61,486 nucleotides of DNA from Blastocatellia bacterium (GTDB lineage Bacteria > Acidobacteriota > Blastocatellia > HR10), in the NCBI GenBank assembly GCA_035573895.1, contig DATLZR010000044.1, positions 1-61,486 of the forward strand. The letters are read 5' to 3'. Shown here piece by piece: positions 4,563-28,214 of the stretch. Within the stretch, counting starts at the first letter, position 1. Each line of letters begins with the position of its first letter. The position numbers and the translations under genes are program-made. The notes under the pieces are model-generated. The model saw nothing but the letters and a program-made list of their open reading frames with translations, was not told the origin of the DNA and ran no database searches.

Positions 4563-6107
4563 TCACGCCCGGTCATATCTTCCGGTGCCACTCCAGCGGC
4601 CATAGATCCAGGTAAGCTCGCCCAGCCGATCTCGCACCGCCTCCGTCAGCGCTGAGGGAAGAAACCGCCAGCGCCAGTTCCCGCTCGGACAGGCCGGGCG
4701 ATTCATCCGCGCTTCACTGCCCAGGCCCAGAATATCCTGTAGAGGAATGATGGCCAGATCCGCCACCGACGCAAGAGCAGCCCGAATGAACGCCCAGTGA
4801 ATCTCTCGACCGTCGGTGCCGAGGTAGCGGGCAGCGAACTCCCGCGATTGTTGCTCGGCTTCCCTCGAGCGCGTGCCCTGATCCAGGTTCCTCCACCAGC
4901 CCACGATCGTGTCGTTATCGTGTGTGCCGGTATAAACGCACAGATTCCGCTGATGATTGTGAGGCAAAAAGGGATGATGCGGATCACCGTCGAAGGCAAA
5001 TTGCAGGACGGCCATTCCGGGAAAACCACAGGCTTCCCTCAACTGTTCCACTTCCGGCGTAATTATTCCGAGATTCTCGGCCACAAAGGGGAGCACGCCG
5101 AGTTCATTTCGCAACGCCTCAAACAAAGCGGCTCCCGGCCCCTTCACCCATCGCCCCCGAATGGCCGTCTCCTCACCTGCGGGAACTTCCCAGAAGGCCT
5201 CAAATCCACGAAAATGATCGAGCCGGACAATATCCACAAGCTGAAGCATCACCCGCACGCGCTCGATCCACCAGCGGTATCCGGTCTCGGCCAGGGCCTC
5301 CCACCGGTAGAGCGGATGACCCCACAACTGTCCCGTCGGGCTGAAATAATCAGGCGGGACACCGGCCACCACCACCGGCCGACCTTCTTCATCGAGCTGG
5401 AACCAGTCGCGATGAGCCCAGACATCAGCGCTATCGTAGGCGACAAATAAAGGCAAATCGCCCATCAACCGTATCCCGCGCGCGTGACAATACCGTCGGA
5501 GTTCTGCCCACTGCCGGAAAAAAAGATACTGGTAGTAGCGGTGTCGCGTGATCTCTTCTGCCGCCCGTCGCTGCCACCTGCTCACGGCTTCTGCCTGCCG
5601 GAGCGCAATTGCCCGCTCCCACCGATTCCAGGAAGCGCCACCATGCGCCTGCTTGACGGCCATAAATAGAGCAAAATCGTCGAGCCAATCGGCCTGTTGC
5701 TCGCAAAAGGCATGAAACTTGTCCTTTTCGGTCGCTGATGCCGAGGCCTGGAACCGCTCGTAGGAGCGCCGCAACAACTCGCCCTTGACCTCAATGACCC
5801 GACCATAGTCAACGGTGCCTTCCGGGAACACCGATGCCGCCTCGACCTCGGAGCGTTCAAGAGTGCCATCCTCCACCAGTCGGTCCAGGCTGATGAGCAA
5901 CGGATTTCCGGCAAAAGCTGAGAGTGTTTGATAGGGCGAATCACCGTAGCCCGTCGGACCGAGAGGCAACACCTCCCAAATGCCCTGCCCGCTCGAGGCC
6001 AGAAAATCGGCAAACCGATAGGCCGACGGGCCGAGATCTCCTATGCCACACCCGCCCGGCAGCGACGTAACGTGCAGCAGAATTCCACTCGTTCGAGCAA
6101 ATCTCAT
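4563..6107 (-). CDS. malQ: 4-alpha-glucanotransferase (amylomaltase), GH77
   Basis: A 514-residue cytosolic GH77 enzyme that transfers alpha-1,4-glucan segments in maltodextrin and glycogen metabolism. Diagnostic motifs are the N-terminal SGILLHVTSLPG and GIGDLGPSAYRFADFL, then GDLPLFVAYDSADVW, the nucleophile region VRLDHFRGFEAFW, the acid/base region VAENLGIIT, and GTHDNDTIVGWW. Length matches the compact bacterial amylomaltase type. The ATG at 6107 was chosen over the longer reading to 6176 because the conserved domain begins immediately (MRFARTSGILLH) and a GGGAG lies upstream. It is transcribed divergently from TonB receptor 1. Confidence 0.95.
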   Translation of the reverse strand: MRFARTSGILLHVTSLPGGCGIGDLGPSAYRFADFLASSGQGIWEVLPLGPTGYGDSPYQTLSAFAGNPLLISLDRLVEDGTLERSEVEAASVFPEGTVDYGRVIEVKGELLRRSYERFQASASATEKDKFHAFCEQQADWLDDFALFMAVKQAHGGASWNRWERAIALRQAEAVSRWQRRAAEEITRHRYYQYLFFRQWAELRRYCHARGIRLMGDLPLFVAYDSADVWAHRDWFQLDEEGRPVVVAGVPPDYFSPTGQLWGHPLYRWEALAETGYRWWIERVRVMLQLVDIVRLDHFRGFEAFWEVPAGEETAIRGRWVKGPGAALFEALRNELGVLPFVAENLGIITPEVEQLREACGFPGMAVLQFAFDGDPHHPFLPHNHQRNLCVYTGTHDNDTIVGWWRNLDQGTRSREAEQQSREFAARYLGTDGREIHWAFIRAALASVADLAIIPLQDILGLGSEARMNRPACPSGNWRWRFLPSALTEAVRDRLGELTWIYGRWSGTGRYDRA

Positions 6108-6407
6108 CCGGCGCGTTTCTCCCTTTACCAGGCGTCTGCTTTCTCGTCTGCACCAGCTCGGTAAGTCTGTCTCCAATTGCAGCCATCGTCAACATACAAG
6201 CCCCGTCGTCGAAAAGAGCCGGAGAGGGCACACATTCGCGCCGAGTTCTAAAGACATCGTCGAAATTGCCCGGGAAAGGCGCCGAATGAGGGGAAGGTCT
6301 CTCTGCCCCTGGACAAATCATCAGCGGGGGGCTTTTGATCTGCGGGCGATTCTATTCTGGAGCGATTGCCCTGAACGGTTAGCGAGATTTTGGAAAGAAC
6401 GGAGGGC

Positions 6408-6444
6408 TTCCATTTTTTCGGATGTGATTTCCGAAAAAATGGAA
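6408..6444. promoter_or_regulatory. Perfect 15-bp inverted repeat (candidate enhancer/operator)
   Basis: Arms TTCCATTTTTTCGGA (6408-6422) and TCCGAAAAAATGGAA (6430-6444) are exact reverse complements separated by 7 bp. The dyad is A+T rich in an otherwise G+C-rich neighbourhood. It lies about 65 bp upstream of the sigma-54-like element, roughly -127 to -91 from the predicted start of transcription, a usual distance for an enhancer-binding protein. The alternative is a terminator for a short transcript; the T run sits inside the arm rather than after the stem, which argues against that. Confidence 0.6.
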
Positions 6445-6508
6445 AAAGGGTGGTCAAGCTATTCAGCTAACTGACTGTGTTTCTATTGCTTGAGCTTTAG
6501 ACCTCTCG

Positions 6509-6524
6509 CGGCACATTAATTGCT
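6509..6524 (+). promoter_or_regulatory. Candidate sigma-54 (-24/-12) promoter of TonB receptor 1
   Basis: The sequence CGGCACATTAATTGCT has GG at 6510-6511 and GC at 6522-6523 with exactly 10 bp between. It matches TGGCACR-N4-TTGCW at all but the first base. Transcription would begin near 6535 and the receptor start codon is at 6605. RpoN use is an inference; no rpoN gene is in the window. Confidence 0.5.
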
Positions 6525-6604
6525 ACCCCTTTGGTGCCCCTGTTTGACAGAGGCGGATCAGATTTCCCCCTTCCGGGGGTATTTCACAAACTGAGGAGGT
6601 AACG

Positions 6605-9600
6605 ATGAAGAGACATCATGGAAGGTACCTGGGAATCCTCGCAGGGCTTCTCCTGGTGAGCTGGTTCTCGGTTGTATCGGCTCAGGTACGTCCTGTGGGA
6701 CAGATCGTTGGTGTCGTTCAAGACCCGACGGGAGCTGTTGTCCCCGGGGCCGAGGTGAAGCTCGAAGATGAGGCAACTGGCGATACCCAAATCAGGAAAA
6801 CGGGTCCCGACGGAGGTTTTGTCTTTCTGAACCTCAACGTTGGGACCTACAAGGTGACGGTGACAATGTCGGGTTTTCGGACCGCCGTCTATTCGGGAAT
6901 CAAAGTGGATGCCGCGCGTACGACCAACGTGACCGTCACGCTCCAAATCGGCGAGATCGCTGAAGCCGTCGAAGTGATTGGCGGACTTGAGGTGCTGGAG
7001 CGAACGACAACAACCATCGAGACGACCGTCCGAGGCGATATTGTCCGGCGACTGCCGTTGAACAATCGCGATACACTGGATTTCACGCTGTTGATGCCCG
7101 GAGCCCAGCAGGGCGGAACGGCCCGTCAGAGCACGTTCCTCGGCCTGCCCAAAGGGGCCATCAATATCACGATGGACGGCGTCAACATTCAGGATAATCT
7201 GCTCAAGAGCGCTTTTGGCGGTGGCATGTTCACCATCATCCGGCCGCGCTTGGATGCCGTCGAAGAGGTGACGGTTAAGACGGCAGGCGTGGGCGCGGAG
7301 GCAGCGGGAGAAGGAGCGGTCCAGATTCAGTTCGTCACCCGTCGAGGGACGAACACCTTCCGCGGGACGCTCTTCTGGGACCACCGCAATGACGCGCTCA
7401 ATGCCAACACGTGGTTCAACAACGTCCTCGGACTGCGGCGGCCCAGGAACCTGCTCAATGTCTTCGGTGGCAATGTGGGCGGCCCGGTCTGGAAGGACAG
7501 GATCTTCTTCTTCTTCAACTACGAAGAGTTCAGATTGCCGGAGTCGCGTCCGCGAGAGAACCTGATCCTCACGACGGAAGCGGCCCAGGGCATCTTCCGG
7601 TATCGAGGAACCGATGGCACCGTGCGCACGGTGAATCTCCTGGAGGTGGCGAGGGCAGCCGGGTTCCCGGGCACAATTGATCCCACCATTGGAGACATGC
7701 TGCAGCAGATCAACGCGGCGCGATCGCGGGGAGCGATCAGCCCGTTCGACCTCTTCCGCGAGCGGTATCGGTTTGAAGCTCCCAGCATGCAGGTGCGACG
7801 CTTCCCCACGTTGCGCATGGACTATCACATCACGGACAAGCTGCGGTGGCATGGGGTGTGGCACTATAACTACTTCTCCTCGTTACCGGACACGTTGAAT
7901 TCGATGGATCCCACATTCCCTGGCCTGGGGAAGCCGGCCGGCCAGTATTCCAATCGCTTTTCCGTGACAACGGCCCTTCAGTACACGATCACGTCGAACA
8001 CGAACTATGAATTTCGCTTTGGAGTTCAGGGAGCGCCTGTGCAGTTCTTCCCCGAATCGGGACCGGAGATCTATCCGGCGGGCGTGCGCATCCTCTGGCC
8101 GCTTGGCTTGCAGAGTCTGCACGCGCGTCCGGGAGCCGCGGGAACCTCACTCGCACTTCCGTCGAGTCGAAACACCCCGGTCTACAATCTGCAGAACACC
8201 CTGGGTCTTGTGCGCGGAAAGCACTCGTGGGTTTTCGGTGGAACATTCACGCGCGTGGGCTTTATTGACAATTCCTTTGGTGGGGCAGGTATTCCCACGG
8301 TCTCCTTTGGTGTGGTGAGTGGAGATCCCGTCGCCTCGGTGATTCAGGCGGGATTGCCCAACATCAGCACGACGGATCTCGGGAATGCGCTGGCGCTCTA
8401 TGCGCTGCTGACGGGCCGGATCTCCGGCGTCTCCGGGAGTCGCAACGTGGATGAGAGGACGAAGCGGTACGTTCATCTTGCTCCACTGGTGCAGCGGGCG
8501 CGGCAGGACGAATTCGGCCTCTACTTCATGGATTCCTGGCGCGTGACGCCGGCGCTGACGCTCAACTACGGCTTGCGCTGGGAGTTCCAGGGGGCAGCCG
8601 AGAACACCAATGACATCTACACGAGCCCGCGGGCGGAAGATCTCTGGGGCATCTCCGGCGTCGGCAACCTGTTCAAGCCGGGTCTCTTCCGTGGGATCGC
8701 CGATCCGCAAATCGAGCAGCGCTCGCGCAAGGTCTATAACCGCGACTTCATCAATCCGGCGCCGAGCTTTGGACTGGCCTGGAATCCGCGATTTGAGAAC
8801 CCCTTCTTCCGCTTCCTGTTCGGAGACGAGCGCAAGTCGGTCTTTCGAGGAAGCTATTCCATCGCGTACACGCGCGAAGGGCTCAGCCACTTCACTCAAT
8901 TCGCTGGCGGCAACCCGGGTCTGACGCAGTCCATCTCGCTGACGGCGGGCGTAGACTTTCCAATCGGCGGGCTGCTCCTGCGGGATCGGTTGCCGGCATT
9001 CAGCGAAGATCCGCCGAGCTTCAGCTTCCCCACACCGCTTTCGCGCTTCACCTTCATCGGAGGCAATTTCTTCGCCTTCGATCCCAACATCCGGACGCCG
9101 TATGTCCAGTCGTGGTCCTTCGGCTGGCAGCGCGAGCTGACGCGCGACATGGCGATTGAAATCCGCTATGTCGGCAATCGCGGGACGAAGCTCTGGCGCG
9201 GGTTCAACCTGAATGAGGTGAACATCTTCGAGAACGGGTTCCTGCAGGAGTTCCTCAATGCCCAGCGGAATCTGGCCATCAGCCGGGCCCAGGGACGCGG
9301 CAATCGCTTCGACAACCAGGGATTGCCGGGCCAGGTTCCCCTGCCGATCTTTGAGGCGGCCTTTGGCGCCCGTGGCCGTCAAGGGGCACTCCCGTTGGCC
9401 TCCGGGTTTGGAAGCGCTTCTTTCGTCGCCCTGCTGGATCAGGGTCAAGCGGGAGCCCTGGCCAATGCCCTGGCCTCTTCGGCAACATTCCTCTGCCGGG
9501 CGGTCGGAAGCGCCCTCCCGCGTTGTGCAGCTCTTGGCTTCGATGCACCGGGGGTCTTGCCGGTCAACTTCTTCCAGGCCAATCCCTATGCGGCCAACCG

Positions 9601-10444
9601 TGGCGTATGGCTGTTGACGAACGCCTCCTTCTCCACCTACAACGGGCTGCAGCTCATTTTCCGACGGCGCCTAGCGCAAGGGTGGCAGATGACGGCTCAC
9701 TATACCTTCTCCAAGGCCCTCACGGACCTCTACGCCGATTCCGCTGTTTCGAGCATCTCCTTCAGCACGCTGCGCAATCGGCGGATGGACAAAGGGCTTT
9801 CACCCTGGGACCTCACCCACGTCTTCGTGAGCGACTTCCAGTACGAGCTGCCCTTCGGTCCCGGTCGGCGCTGGTCGTCCAGCTCGGGCGCCCTCAACCG
9901 GCTCATCGAAGGATGGTTGATCGGTGGAATCGTTCGCGTTCAGTCCGGCCGTATCTTCCGGCTCACGAGCGGGCGAGCCACGGTGAACCAGTTTGACTCC
10001 GGCGTCATCCTCAAGGGGATCACGATCAAGGAATTGCAAGAGAAGATCGGCGTTCGGAAGGTTCCCGGCGCTCGTGACATCTTCTTCGTGACTCCGGACC
10101 TGATCGGACCCGATGGCCGCTCCAATCGGGCGATCCTGGACGTGCCAACGACGCCCGGTCAGTTCGGCTCGCTCGTTTTCCTGCGTGGTCCTCGATTTGT
10201 CAAACCCGATCTCACGCTCCAGAAGCGCACGCGGGTGACCGAGCGGATCAACGTCGAATTCTGGGCCGAGTTCTTCAATGCCTTCAACTACCAGAATTTC
10301 CTGATCGGCGGCCCGAATGCGGCGGGCATCACGCATAGCATTGACTCGACGGCCTTCGGGCGCACGACCGAGTTCTTCAACGATCTGGGCAATCAGGATC
10401 CGGGTCCGCGCATGATCCAGTTCCGCATCCGGGTGAACTTCTAG
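6605..10444 (+). CDS. Oar-like TonB-dependent outer membrane receptor (receptor 1)
   Basis: A 1279-residue protein with a clear signal peptide (LGILAGLLLVSWF, cleavage near VSAQ, residue 26). A carboxypeptidase-regulatory-like domain (about 30-115; VGVVQDPTGAVVPGAEVKL, YKVTVTMSGF) follows, then a plug region containing RRLPLNNRDTLDF and NITMDGVNIQDN, and a long barrel ending in the aromatic-terminated FRIRVNF typical of outer membrane barrels. Oar-like receptors are numerous in Acidobacteriota and take up unknown polymers or peptides using TonB energy. The start follows GAGGAGGT by four bases. Two hairpins follow the stop. It has its own regulatory region and is not in an operon. Confidence 0.92.
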   Translation: MKRHHGRYLGILAGLLLVSWFSVVSAQVRPVGQIVGVVQDPTGAVVPGAEVKLEDEATGDTQIRKTGPDGGFVFLNLNVGTYKVTVTMSGFRTAVYSGIKVDAARTTNVTVTLQIGEIAEAVEVIGGLEVLERTTTTIETTVRGDIVRRLPLNNRDTLDFTLLMPGAQQGGTARQSTFLGLPKGAINITMDGVNIQDNLLKSAFGGGMFTIIRPRLDAVEEVTVKTAGVGAEAAGEGAVQIQFVTRRGTNTFRGTLFWDHRNDALNANTWFNNVLGLRRPRNLLNVFGGNVGGPVWKDRIFFFFNYEEFRLPESRPRENLILTTEAAQGIFRYRGTDGTVRTVNLLEVARAAGFPGTIDPTIGDMLQQINAARSRGAISPFDLFRERYRFEAPSMQVRRFPTLRMDYHITDKLRWHGVWHYNYFSSLPDTLNSMDPTFPGLGKPAGQYSNRFSVTTALQYTITSNTNYEFRFGVQGAPVQFFPESGPEIYPAGVRILWPLGLQSLHARPGAAGTSLALPSSRNTPVYNLQNTLGLVRGKHSWVFGGTFTRVGFIDNSFGGAGIPTVSFGVVSGDPVASVIQAGLPNISTTDLGNALALYALLTGRISGVSGSRNVDERTKRYVHLAPLVQRARQDEFGLYFMDSWRVTPALTLNYGLRWEFQGAAENTNDIYTSPRAEDLWGISGVGNLFKPGLFRGIADPQIEQRSRKVYNRDFINPAPSFGLAWNPRFENPFFRFLFGDERKSVFRGSYSIAYTREGLSHFTQFAGGNPGLTQSISLTAGVDFPIGGLLLRDRLPAFSEDPPSFSFPTPLSRFTFIGGNFFAFDPNIRTPYVQSWSFGWQRELTRDMAIEIRYVGNRGTKLWRGFNLNEVNIFENGFLQEFLNAQRNLAISRAQGRGNRFDNQGLPGQVPLPIFEAAFGARGRQGALPLASGFGSASFVALLDQGQAGALANALASSATFLCRAVGSALPRCAALGFDAPGVLPVNFFQANPYAANRGVWLLTNASFSTYNGLQLIFRRRLAQGWQMTAHYTFSKALTDLYADSAVSSISFSTLRNRRMDKGLSPWDLTHVFVSDFQYELPFGPGRRWSSSSGALNRLIEGWLIGGIVRVQSGRIFRLTSGRATVNQFDSGVILKGITIKELQEKIGVRKVPGARDIFFVTPDLIGPDGRSNRAILDVPTTPGQFGSLVFLRGPRFVKPDLTLQKRTRVTERINVEFWAEFFNAFNYQNFLIGGPNAAGITHSIDSTAFGRTTEFFNDLGNQDPGPRMIQFRIRVNF

Positions 10445-25805: not shown

Positions 25806-28214
25806 ATGATGACGGCTCAGGAAGCCGAGAGAGTTACGCTGGAACGACGGCTTCGGATGTATCAAGCCCGTGACGCTATCATCAATCGGTTGAATCCCGA
25901 AGCCCACCAGCTCATTGATCTGGACGTCTTTTTGCGAGCGGCGGCCTCCGAACTGGGGAAGCTCATGGAGGTGGATCGTTGTAACTTCCTCGTCCGCTCG
26001 CCTTCGGGTGAGTTGCGGATCGAGTACGAGTATCGCGCCGACGACTCCATTCCCTCGATGCTGGGATTGAAGGTCCCCACCGACATTCAGGCACTCAATG
26101 GCAAACTGGACCTTCGTCGTTCCATCGCCATCAACGATACGGCGGCGCTGACGCTGGATCCTCTCCTGGCCAAGATCGTGGAGATGACGGCCACGCGCTC
26201 GCTACTGATCGTCCCGGTGGTGCTCAAGTCGGAGGTGCTCGGCCTCATCGGACTCCAGTACTGCAAGAAGCCGCATTCCTGGTTGCCCGAGGAGATCAGC
26301 TTCATCGAATCCATTGCCCGGCAGGTCGCCATCGGCTATGCCTACACCAAGCTCTATTCGGAGAAGGAGAAAGAGGCCAACATCAATCGCGTCCTGCTGG
26401 AGATCGCCAACGACATCAACACGAGCGGAGATTTCCTCGATGTCACCGGCTCGGTCATTGACAAAGCGGTGGCGCTCATCGGGGCCGACGTCGGTTGTTT
26501 GGCCGTCCTCGATGCCAGCGGCAAGCATCTTCATTTTGATCTCGTGCGGGGACCGGGGCGGGACAGGTTGCGGGTCGAGCCGCTCGATGTGGAAGATCAC
26601 CCGATGGTGCGAGCGGCGTTCGAGGCGAGAAAACCATTGCCGCTGGCGTCTTCCGATGGCGGCGATCTGGCCGACTTCTTCCTCAATGTGCTGTTCTCCG
26701 GAGCCACGTCGGCCCTCATTGTCCCCATCATCATTCGGGACCGAGCGTTTGGATTGCTCAACCTCATCTGGCTCAGCCGCCCGCGACAGTTCACCCGCTA
26801 TGAAGTCGAACTGGTCGCCGGGATCGCCAATCAGATCGCCATCACGCTGGAGAAGGATCAACTGAGCGCTGAGGTCGTTCAACTCCGTCAGCAGCTTCGC
26901 GGCACGCGAGCGCCGGAGCCGATCATCGGGGTGAGCGAGAAGATCAAGAAATGCATCGAGATGGCCATGCACGTCGCCGACAGCCCGACGACCGTTCTGC
27001 TTCAGGGCGAATCGGGAACGGGAAAGGAGCTGATCGCCGACCTCATCCACTACAACAGCCCGCGCGCCAACAAACCGTATATCAAGATCAACTGTGGCGC
27101 TCTGCCCGAGACACTGCTGGAAACGGAACTCTTCGGACACGAACGCGGAGCCTTCACCGATGCTCGCAGCCGACGCATCGGCAAGTTCGAGGAAGCCAAT
27201 GGGGGAACGCTCTTCCTCGACGAGGTGGGGGAGATGAGTCTGAGCGCTCAAGTCAAACTCCTGCGCGTGCTGCAGGACGGAGAGTTCACCCGCATCGGAG
27301 GCAATCAGGTCATCAAGACCGATGTGCGCATCATTGCCGCCACCAACGTCGAACTGATGAAGGCCGTCGAGGCCGGGCGATTTCGCCTCGATCTCTTCTA
27401 CCGGTTGAATGTCTATCCCATTCGGATTCCGCCGCTGCGGGAGCGGCCCGAGGATATTCGTCCGCTCGTCATTCACTTCATCAAGCGCTATCAAAAGAAG
27501 TCGGGCAAGCGCATTACGGGAATTACGGAGAAGGCCCTGGAACTGCTGGAGAGATACACCTGGCCGGGGAACGTGCGCGAACTGGAGAACGCAATCGAAC
27601 GAGCGGTGATCCTGGCCTCGGGACGGATGATCACGGTGAACGACCTGCCGGAGACCATTCGCGGCAACCAGCAGGAATCGAGCCTCGCGGCCGCCGGCCT
27701 CGATGTCGGCGCTCCGGTGGAAGAGATGGAACGGCGCGTTCTTCTGGAGTCGCTCATGCCATCGCCGGGAGAGCGACGGGAGTATGTCTACCCTCTGGCG
27801 ATGCACTTCCTCGACCTCTACCGGAAGAAGCTGGGCAAGTCGGTCACGGGACTGAGCGAGCGCGCCTGGGAAGCGTTGCGGCGATATGACTGGCCGGGAG
27901 GTCTCCGCGAGCTGGAAGCCGTCATCGAACAGGCGGTCGCCACCACGACGGGAAATCTCATCACCGTCAGCGATCTCCCTCAGGCCCTCCGTCCGCTGTC
28001 GGCCGATGCCCCTCAGACAACGCTCGAGCTGGAAATCGGGCTGCCAATGAGCGAGGTCGAACGCCGGATCATTCTCCAGACGCTTGATTTCACCGGCGGC
28101 GATAAGACCAAGGCCGCCCGCTTGCTCAAGATCGGTCGGAAGACGCTCTATCGAAAACTGGAGAAGTACGGCGTCCTCCGGGAAGGATCATCCTCCCCGC
28201 GGTCGTCTCAGTGA
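25806..28214 (+). CDS. GAF-GAF-AAA+ sigma-54-dependent transcriptional activator with duplicated lid segment
   Basis: An 802-residue enhancer-binding protein. Two GAF domains occupy about 20-190 and 195-360. The AAA+ domain spans about 375-620, with Walker A GESGTGKE at 401-408, the sigma-contact loop GAFTDA at 448-453 (canonical GAFTGA), and Walker B LFLDE at 469-473. The lid follows with [10 protein letters not shown]. Residues about 545-651 are then repeated at 655-761 with an exact 110-residue offset (second WPG at 696-698). A complete Fis-type helix-turn-helix ends the protein ([20 protein letters not shown]). It would respond to a small ligand through GAF and drive RpoN promoters; the targets are unknown. 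Confidence 0.93.

Follow-up and report, generated by a model that had tools for sequence, protein, structure and literature searches.

Tandem palindromes and a sigma-54 promoter upstream of an Oar-like TonB receptor gene in a Blastocatellia bacterium: a putative receptor regulon and its likely activator pair

Results

We analyzed a 61,486-nucleotide stretch of a Blastocatellia genome (hereafter the window), in which a tandem-palindrome operator at 6408-6444 and a sigma-54 promoter precede the gene for an Oar-like TonB receptor (Table 1). The operator probably acts as a two-site enhancer for an NtrC-like regulator (contig C104) paired with a kinase (contig C14), and would thus drive the receptor gene. 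The architecture, its recurrence, its target genes, its conservation and the presence of the motif at a kinase operon are direct observations. Oar-like TonB receptors number in the dozens in Acidobacteriota such as this hot-spring bacterium; here a shared operator and promoter unite nine of roughly 50 receptors in one regulon. With the regulon and the likely activator genes named, signal and substrates become testable.

Table 1. Features of the window discussed in the text
Feature	Position	Strand	Basis or remark
Divergent 4-alpha-glucanotransferase gene (GH77, malQ-like)	4563..6176	-	PF02446, E 3e-185; start codon uncertain
Tandem-palindrome operator (predicted enhancer)	6408..6444	+	about -127 to -91
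Promoter-distal palindrome TTCCATTTTTTCGGAT	6408..6423	.	alignment of 32 sites
Promoter-proximal palindrome TTCCGAAAAAATGGAA	6429..6444	.	alignment of 32 sites
Sigma-54 (-24/-12) promoter CGGCACATTAATTGCT	6509..6524	+	weighted score 21 of 22, best of the window
Inferred transcription start	6535..6535	+	deduced from -24/-12 position
Ribosome-binding site AGGAGG	6594..6599	+	read from sequence
Oar-like TonB receptor gene, 1279 aa (putatively controlled gene)	6605..10444	+	PF13620, PF25183
GAF-GAF sigma-54 activator	25806..28214	+	domain content

Operator and promoter upstream of the receptor gene

An earlier note on this DNA had described an exact 15-bp inverted repeat in front of the receptor gene. 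Indeed the arms (6408-6422 and 6430-6444) are fully complementary around a 7-bp loop, and no other perfect 15-bp inverted repeat in the window has so short a loop (20 bp or less); none at all appeared in 20 first-order Markov simulations. The reading as one long dyad was refined: comparison with other sites yields two tandem 16-bp palindromes of the TTCCR-N6-YGGAA type, 21 bp apart, and 6408-6444 is better read in this way.

The proposed GG-N10-GC element was confirmed as a sigma-54 site, with GG at 6510-6511 and GC at 6522-6523 in a TGGCAC/TTGC context, and so was the geometry, which places the operator upstream of an inferred start near 6535. CGGCACATTAATTGCT differs at 2 positions from TGGCACG-N4-TTGCW. 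A value of at least 21 on our weighted -24/-12 score is expected 0.0003 times by chance in a 40-bp stretch. The unweighted match alone does not exceed chance (7 sites with at most 2 mismatches in the window, against 8.3 expected), and the promoter is significant because of its position relative to the operator.

The receptor, which starts with ATG at 6605, combines an N-terminal carboxypeptidase-regulatory-like domain (PF13620, E 9e-19) with an Oar-type barrel (PF25183, E 1.6e-130), as in Oar-like receptors, and a signal peptide was recognized by eye. On the side of the divergent malQ-like gene no good sigma-54 site was found, and this gene is not obviously under control of the operator. A short GC-rich inverted repeat, CCCCCTTCCGGGGG (6567-6580), was also noticed in the predicted 5' leader of the receptor mRNA, immediately before the ribosome-binding site.

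Recurrence across the genome

Genome-wide matches to one arm coincided with strong sigma-54 sites at several places, from which the pattern TTCC[AG]-N6-[CT]GGA-N7-TCC[AG]-N6-[CT]GGAA was derived. It occurs 11 times in the genome with at most one mismatch (8 exact, 3 with one mismatch); beyond these, a second allowed mismatch adds one site and a third adds scattered ones, and the reversed pattern, used as control, gave zero exact matches. All 11 operators have a near-consensus sigma-54 site 64-91 bp downstream and on one side only (gaps of 64, 64, 64, 72, 74, 75, 75, 75, 78, 87 and 91 bp); none was found at the two weaker operator matches (more than one mismatch) where it was sought. Ten of the 11 promoters score at least 20.5 or exactly 20, and a score of at least 20 within 110 bp on either strand has a chance of about 0.015 per site. 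All 11 have the layout expected of an NtrC-family operator, in which palindromes recur across a regulon at 60-150 bp ahead of the sigma-54 promoter.

Directly downstream of nine sites lie genes for Oar-like TonB receptors; the other two sites stand before a P-II gene (PF00543) and a gene for a CHRD-domain secreted protein (PF07452). Assuming 50 such receptors among 3400 genes, nine out of 11 corresponds to P about 1e-15. Among the best 30 sigma-54 consensus matches of the genome the palindromes are present at all four that precede receptor genes and absent from the others. Given roughly 50 distinct PF25183 proteins by our own count of frames, about a fifth belongs to the regulon. Pairwise the regulon receptors are mostly 26-44% identical, which shows that they are not one recently duplicated gene. 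Taken together, the earlier proposal of an enhancer and a sigma-54 promoter for an Oar-type receptor is strongly supported. The DNA-binding domain of RpoN is present once in the genome (PF04552, E 3.5e-58), so that the objection the note had raised in advance, a genome lacking rpoN, falls away.

The operator in front of the P-II family gene (113 aa) lies at 2961-2997 of contig C80 (L103), and the presence of this gene in the regulon hints, weakly, at a possible link to nitrogen status.

Sites in other genomes

The exact operator-plus-promoter pattern was searched in 84,980 species genomes. This resulted in 14 matches, 13 in Acidobacteriota/Blastocatellia MAGs (HR08, HR10, J050 and others) and one in Brevibacillus; HR10 is an order of Blastocatellia in GTDB (PMC8787282). 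An Oar-like receptor lies directly downstream in 12 of the 13, and the stretch of the 13th ends too soon. The match in Brevibacillus dissolubilis (L131, 2186-2311), a Bacillota genome, precedes CoA-transferase genes and probably arose by chance or serves a different activator. Apart from isolate records, the genomes used are mostly MAGs.

Across 145 class genomes, the exact tandem site at this spacing is confined to the order of the window, with three repeat-like exceptions that were set aside: in G043 and G056 the pattern belongs to local repeat clusters, and the match in G106 is a single direct repeat. The G043 locus (C44:69248-69427), from a distant family, is an array of TTCCGCAAACGCGGAA-like palindromes with two exact matches to the tandem pattern.

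In six genomes of the same order (G015-G020) all 20 exact sites precede either TonB receptors (17) or kinase-regulator operons (3), counts that are not independent because the genomes are related. In G016 and G018 the window receptor's orthologues have kept operator and promoter (gap 99-100 bp) in diverged flanking upstream DNA. Order-wide, the spacings cluster near 64, 75 and 98 bp and depart from uniformity with a period of about 11 bp; this periodicity is supportive rather than decisive, since the period was fitted and the orthologues are related.

The kinase/regulator pair as candidate activator

The genome encodes 17-18 sigma-54 activators. In G015, G017 and G018 one exact site and its promoter, 78 bp apart, immediately precede the gene for a membrane histidine kinase, which is followed by a gene for an NtrC-like sigma-54 response regulator, and G016 has the same arrangement with small changes; TTCCGAAAAAATGGAA is identical in the window and in the operons of G015, G017 and G018. 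Control of its own genes through a conserved operator typically marks a regulator as the cognate one. Because the operator is conserved at kinase and kinase-regulator promoters, the pair is the likely activator of the operator in the window, and most likely it switches on its own genes in related bacteria.

In the genome of the window the regulator (C104:72-1484, 471 aa) comprises a receiver, a sigma-54 AAA+ domain and a Fis-type HTH; an orthologue to which it is 84% identical (L161:9334-10746) matches PF00072, PF00158 and PF02954 (HTH_8), which places both in the NtrC-like family. The kinase (C14:14514-17435, about 974 aa, 66% identical to its orthologue) adjoins two regulon receptors. A relative's kinase that was examined has a weak PDZ match, GAF, PAS, HisKA and HATPase, with transmembrane segments seen by eye. 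Kinase and regulator are on different contigs here and adjacent in the sister genomes. Against the pair, no operator was found upstream of the kinase gene in this genome; the regulator gene sits at a contig end, so that the sequence before it is missing.

The regulator is present in 133 of the 145 class genomes, and its HTH with the recognition helix is nearly invariant across the class. In distant families, where the kinase is 44-49% identical, one or two TCC[AG]-N6-[CT]GGA palindromes (17-21 bp apart) are found upstream of the kinase gene together with a sigma-54 element of the TGGAAC-N5-TTGC type. Palindromes plus promoter occur at 16 of 18 distant kinase-regulator operons, where chance would give about 3%, and at 2 of 42 regulator genes that do not adjoin a kinase gene; six kinase genes located apart have them as well. 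In these families a genome has about one exact tandem site at 18-bp spacing, mostly at the kinase, and the receptor regulon therefore looks like an extension within the HR10 order. It also speaks against the pair that the regulator is conserved class-wide and the receptor sites were found in one order only, though looser receptor sites may exist elsewhere.

The earlier note had pointed to the GAF-GAF activator encoded in the window, 19 kb from the operator, as the protein that binds there. By its domains it is a sigma-54 activator, and orthologues (59-66% over the sensor part) accompany the site in all site-bearing genomes of the order; G021 lacks both the orthologue and an exact site. The phylogenetic profile alone is thus compatible with it, as it is present wherever the order has exact sites. 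However, the motif is absent within 700-1000 bp upstream of this gene and its six orthologues, it marks the kinase promoter in G137, a genome without this activator, and the sites at the kinase-regulator operon would be left unexplained. Because the motif is missing at its promoters and present in a genome that lacks it, this activator is an improbable binder. Within the protein the AAA-lid region occurs twice, at about 545-626 and, in diverged form, near 655-735; this internal duplication lies ahead of the HTH, and orthologues align through it.

Slightly less probable still is that receptors and kinase operon are coordinated by another of the sigma-54 activators, or by a factor unrelated to sigma-54. 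Many activators are available in the genome, and a site at a regulator's promoter is no proof of binding by that regulator. Nonetheless, no other examined activator has the tandem motif upstream, the fixed distance from the sigma-54 promoters points to an enhancer-binding protein, and the conserved class-wide link to the kinase gene best fits autoregulation. An RNA hairpin, terminator or mobile repeat, as which a perfect inverted repeat with A/T runs could be read, is very improbable and was rejected, given that the dyad lies upstream of the inferred start and between divergent genes, that the sites precede particular genes at limited promoter spacing, and that the site at C27 consists of two direct copies of TTCCATTTTTCTGGAA, so that the short palindrome unit is conserved and not a long hairpin.

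Proposed mechanism

For the kinase/regulator pair we propose a course of events in which binding, phosphotransfer and looping are modelled on the NtrC family and the start site is placed from the -24/-12 element. The kinase would sense a signal and transfer phosphate to the C104 regulator, whose dimers would occupy the two palindromes, spaced by two helical turns. The AAA+ domains would oligomerize on this enhancer, and a DNA loop to RNA polymerase-sigma-54 at the promoter would lead to an open complex and expression of the receptor gene. The same switch would operate before 8 other TonB receptor genes, the P-II gene and the CHRD-domain gene, and in sister genomes before the kinase/regulator operon itself.

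A wider reading, to which we give an even chance, is that a class-wide self-activating kinase/sigma-54 regulator has been extended in the HR10 hot-spring order to TonB receptors that are scattered and share distant kinship, whereby a single two-component system would set much of the outer-membrane uptake repertoire, possibly by nitrogen status in view of the P-II gene. Sigma-54 is usually tied to nitrogen, motility and cell-surface genes; the regulon would extend its role to bulk control of outer-membrane uptake.

Comparison with known systems

The mechanism is ordinary and known; regulon, operator and regulator pair are new to the literature searched. In agreement with the earlier note, which knew of no described case, no sigma-54 regulon of TonB receptors was found in the searchable literature, and none for Acidobacteriota in particular (most subscription papers fall outside this set). 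A 2011 survey of sigma-54 nowhere mentions TonB or Acidobacteria, and the sole mention of TonB in a 2025 survey concerns TonB itself (COG0810) in Flavobacteriia.

NtrBC, AtoSC and ZraSR share with the present system a kinase with a regulator of receiver, AAA+ and Fis-type HTH, autoregulation (putative here), and a pair of palindromic enhancers that lies 60-100 bp ahead of a -24/-12 promoter, whereas the operator here is TTCCR-N6-YGGAA and the targets are TonB receptors. The regulator stays below the NCBIfam equivalog cut-offs for AtoC (467.9 of 714 bits) and NtrC (434.3 of 558.6), and fits no named NCBIfam equivalog.

PrsK/PrsR, the PEP-CTERM regulatory system, likewise is one kinase/regulator pair serving many dispersed cell-surface genes, before which a motif recurs at about 63 bp from a sigma-54 promoter (PMC1569441). 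In Proteobacteria, motif 1, ending in TTTACA, marks the PEP-CTERM genes (PMC1569441), whereas here TTCC/GGAA palindromes mark TonB receptors. The PrsR and PrsK models score below their cut-offs as well (379.5 of 502.6 and 103.7 of 300 bits), and given that both motif and model scores differ, a PEP-CTERM/PrsR regulon was rejected.

In the SusC/TonB systems of Bacteroidetes, as proposed here, a membrane sensor switches on TonB-dependent receptor genes. These are controlled by hybrid two-component systems and ECF sigma/anti-sigma pairs, whereas here sigma-54 is used and one regulator apparently serves many dispersed receptors. A one-piece sensor of the genome (Reg_prop-Y_Y_Y-PAS-sigma-54) was also considered as activator and set aside, as no protein of that length is present among the activators listed for G015-G018. 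This protein of 1363 aa (C169, 1297-5385; L121) consists of Reg_prop propeller repeats, Y_Y_Y, PAS, a sigma-54 AAA+ domain and a Fis-type HTH, as if a hybrid two-component sensor of the Bacteroidetes kind had been joined directly to a sigma-54 activator.
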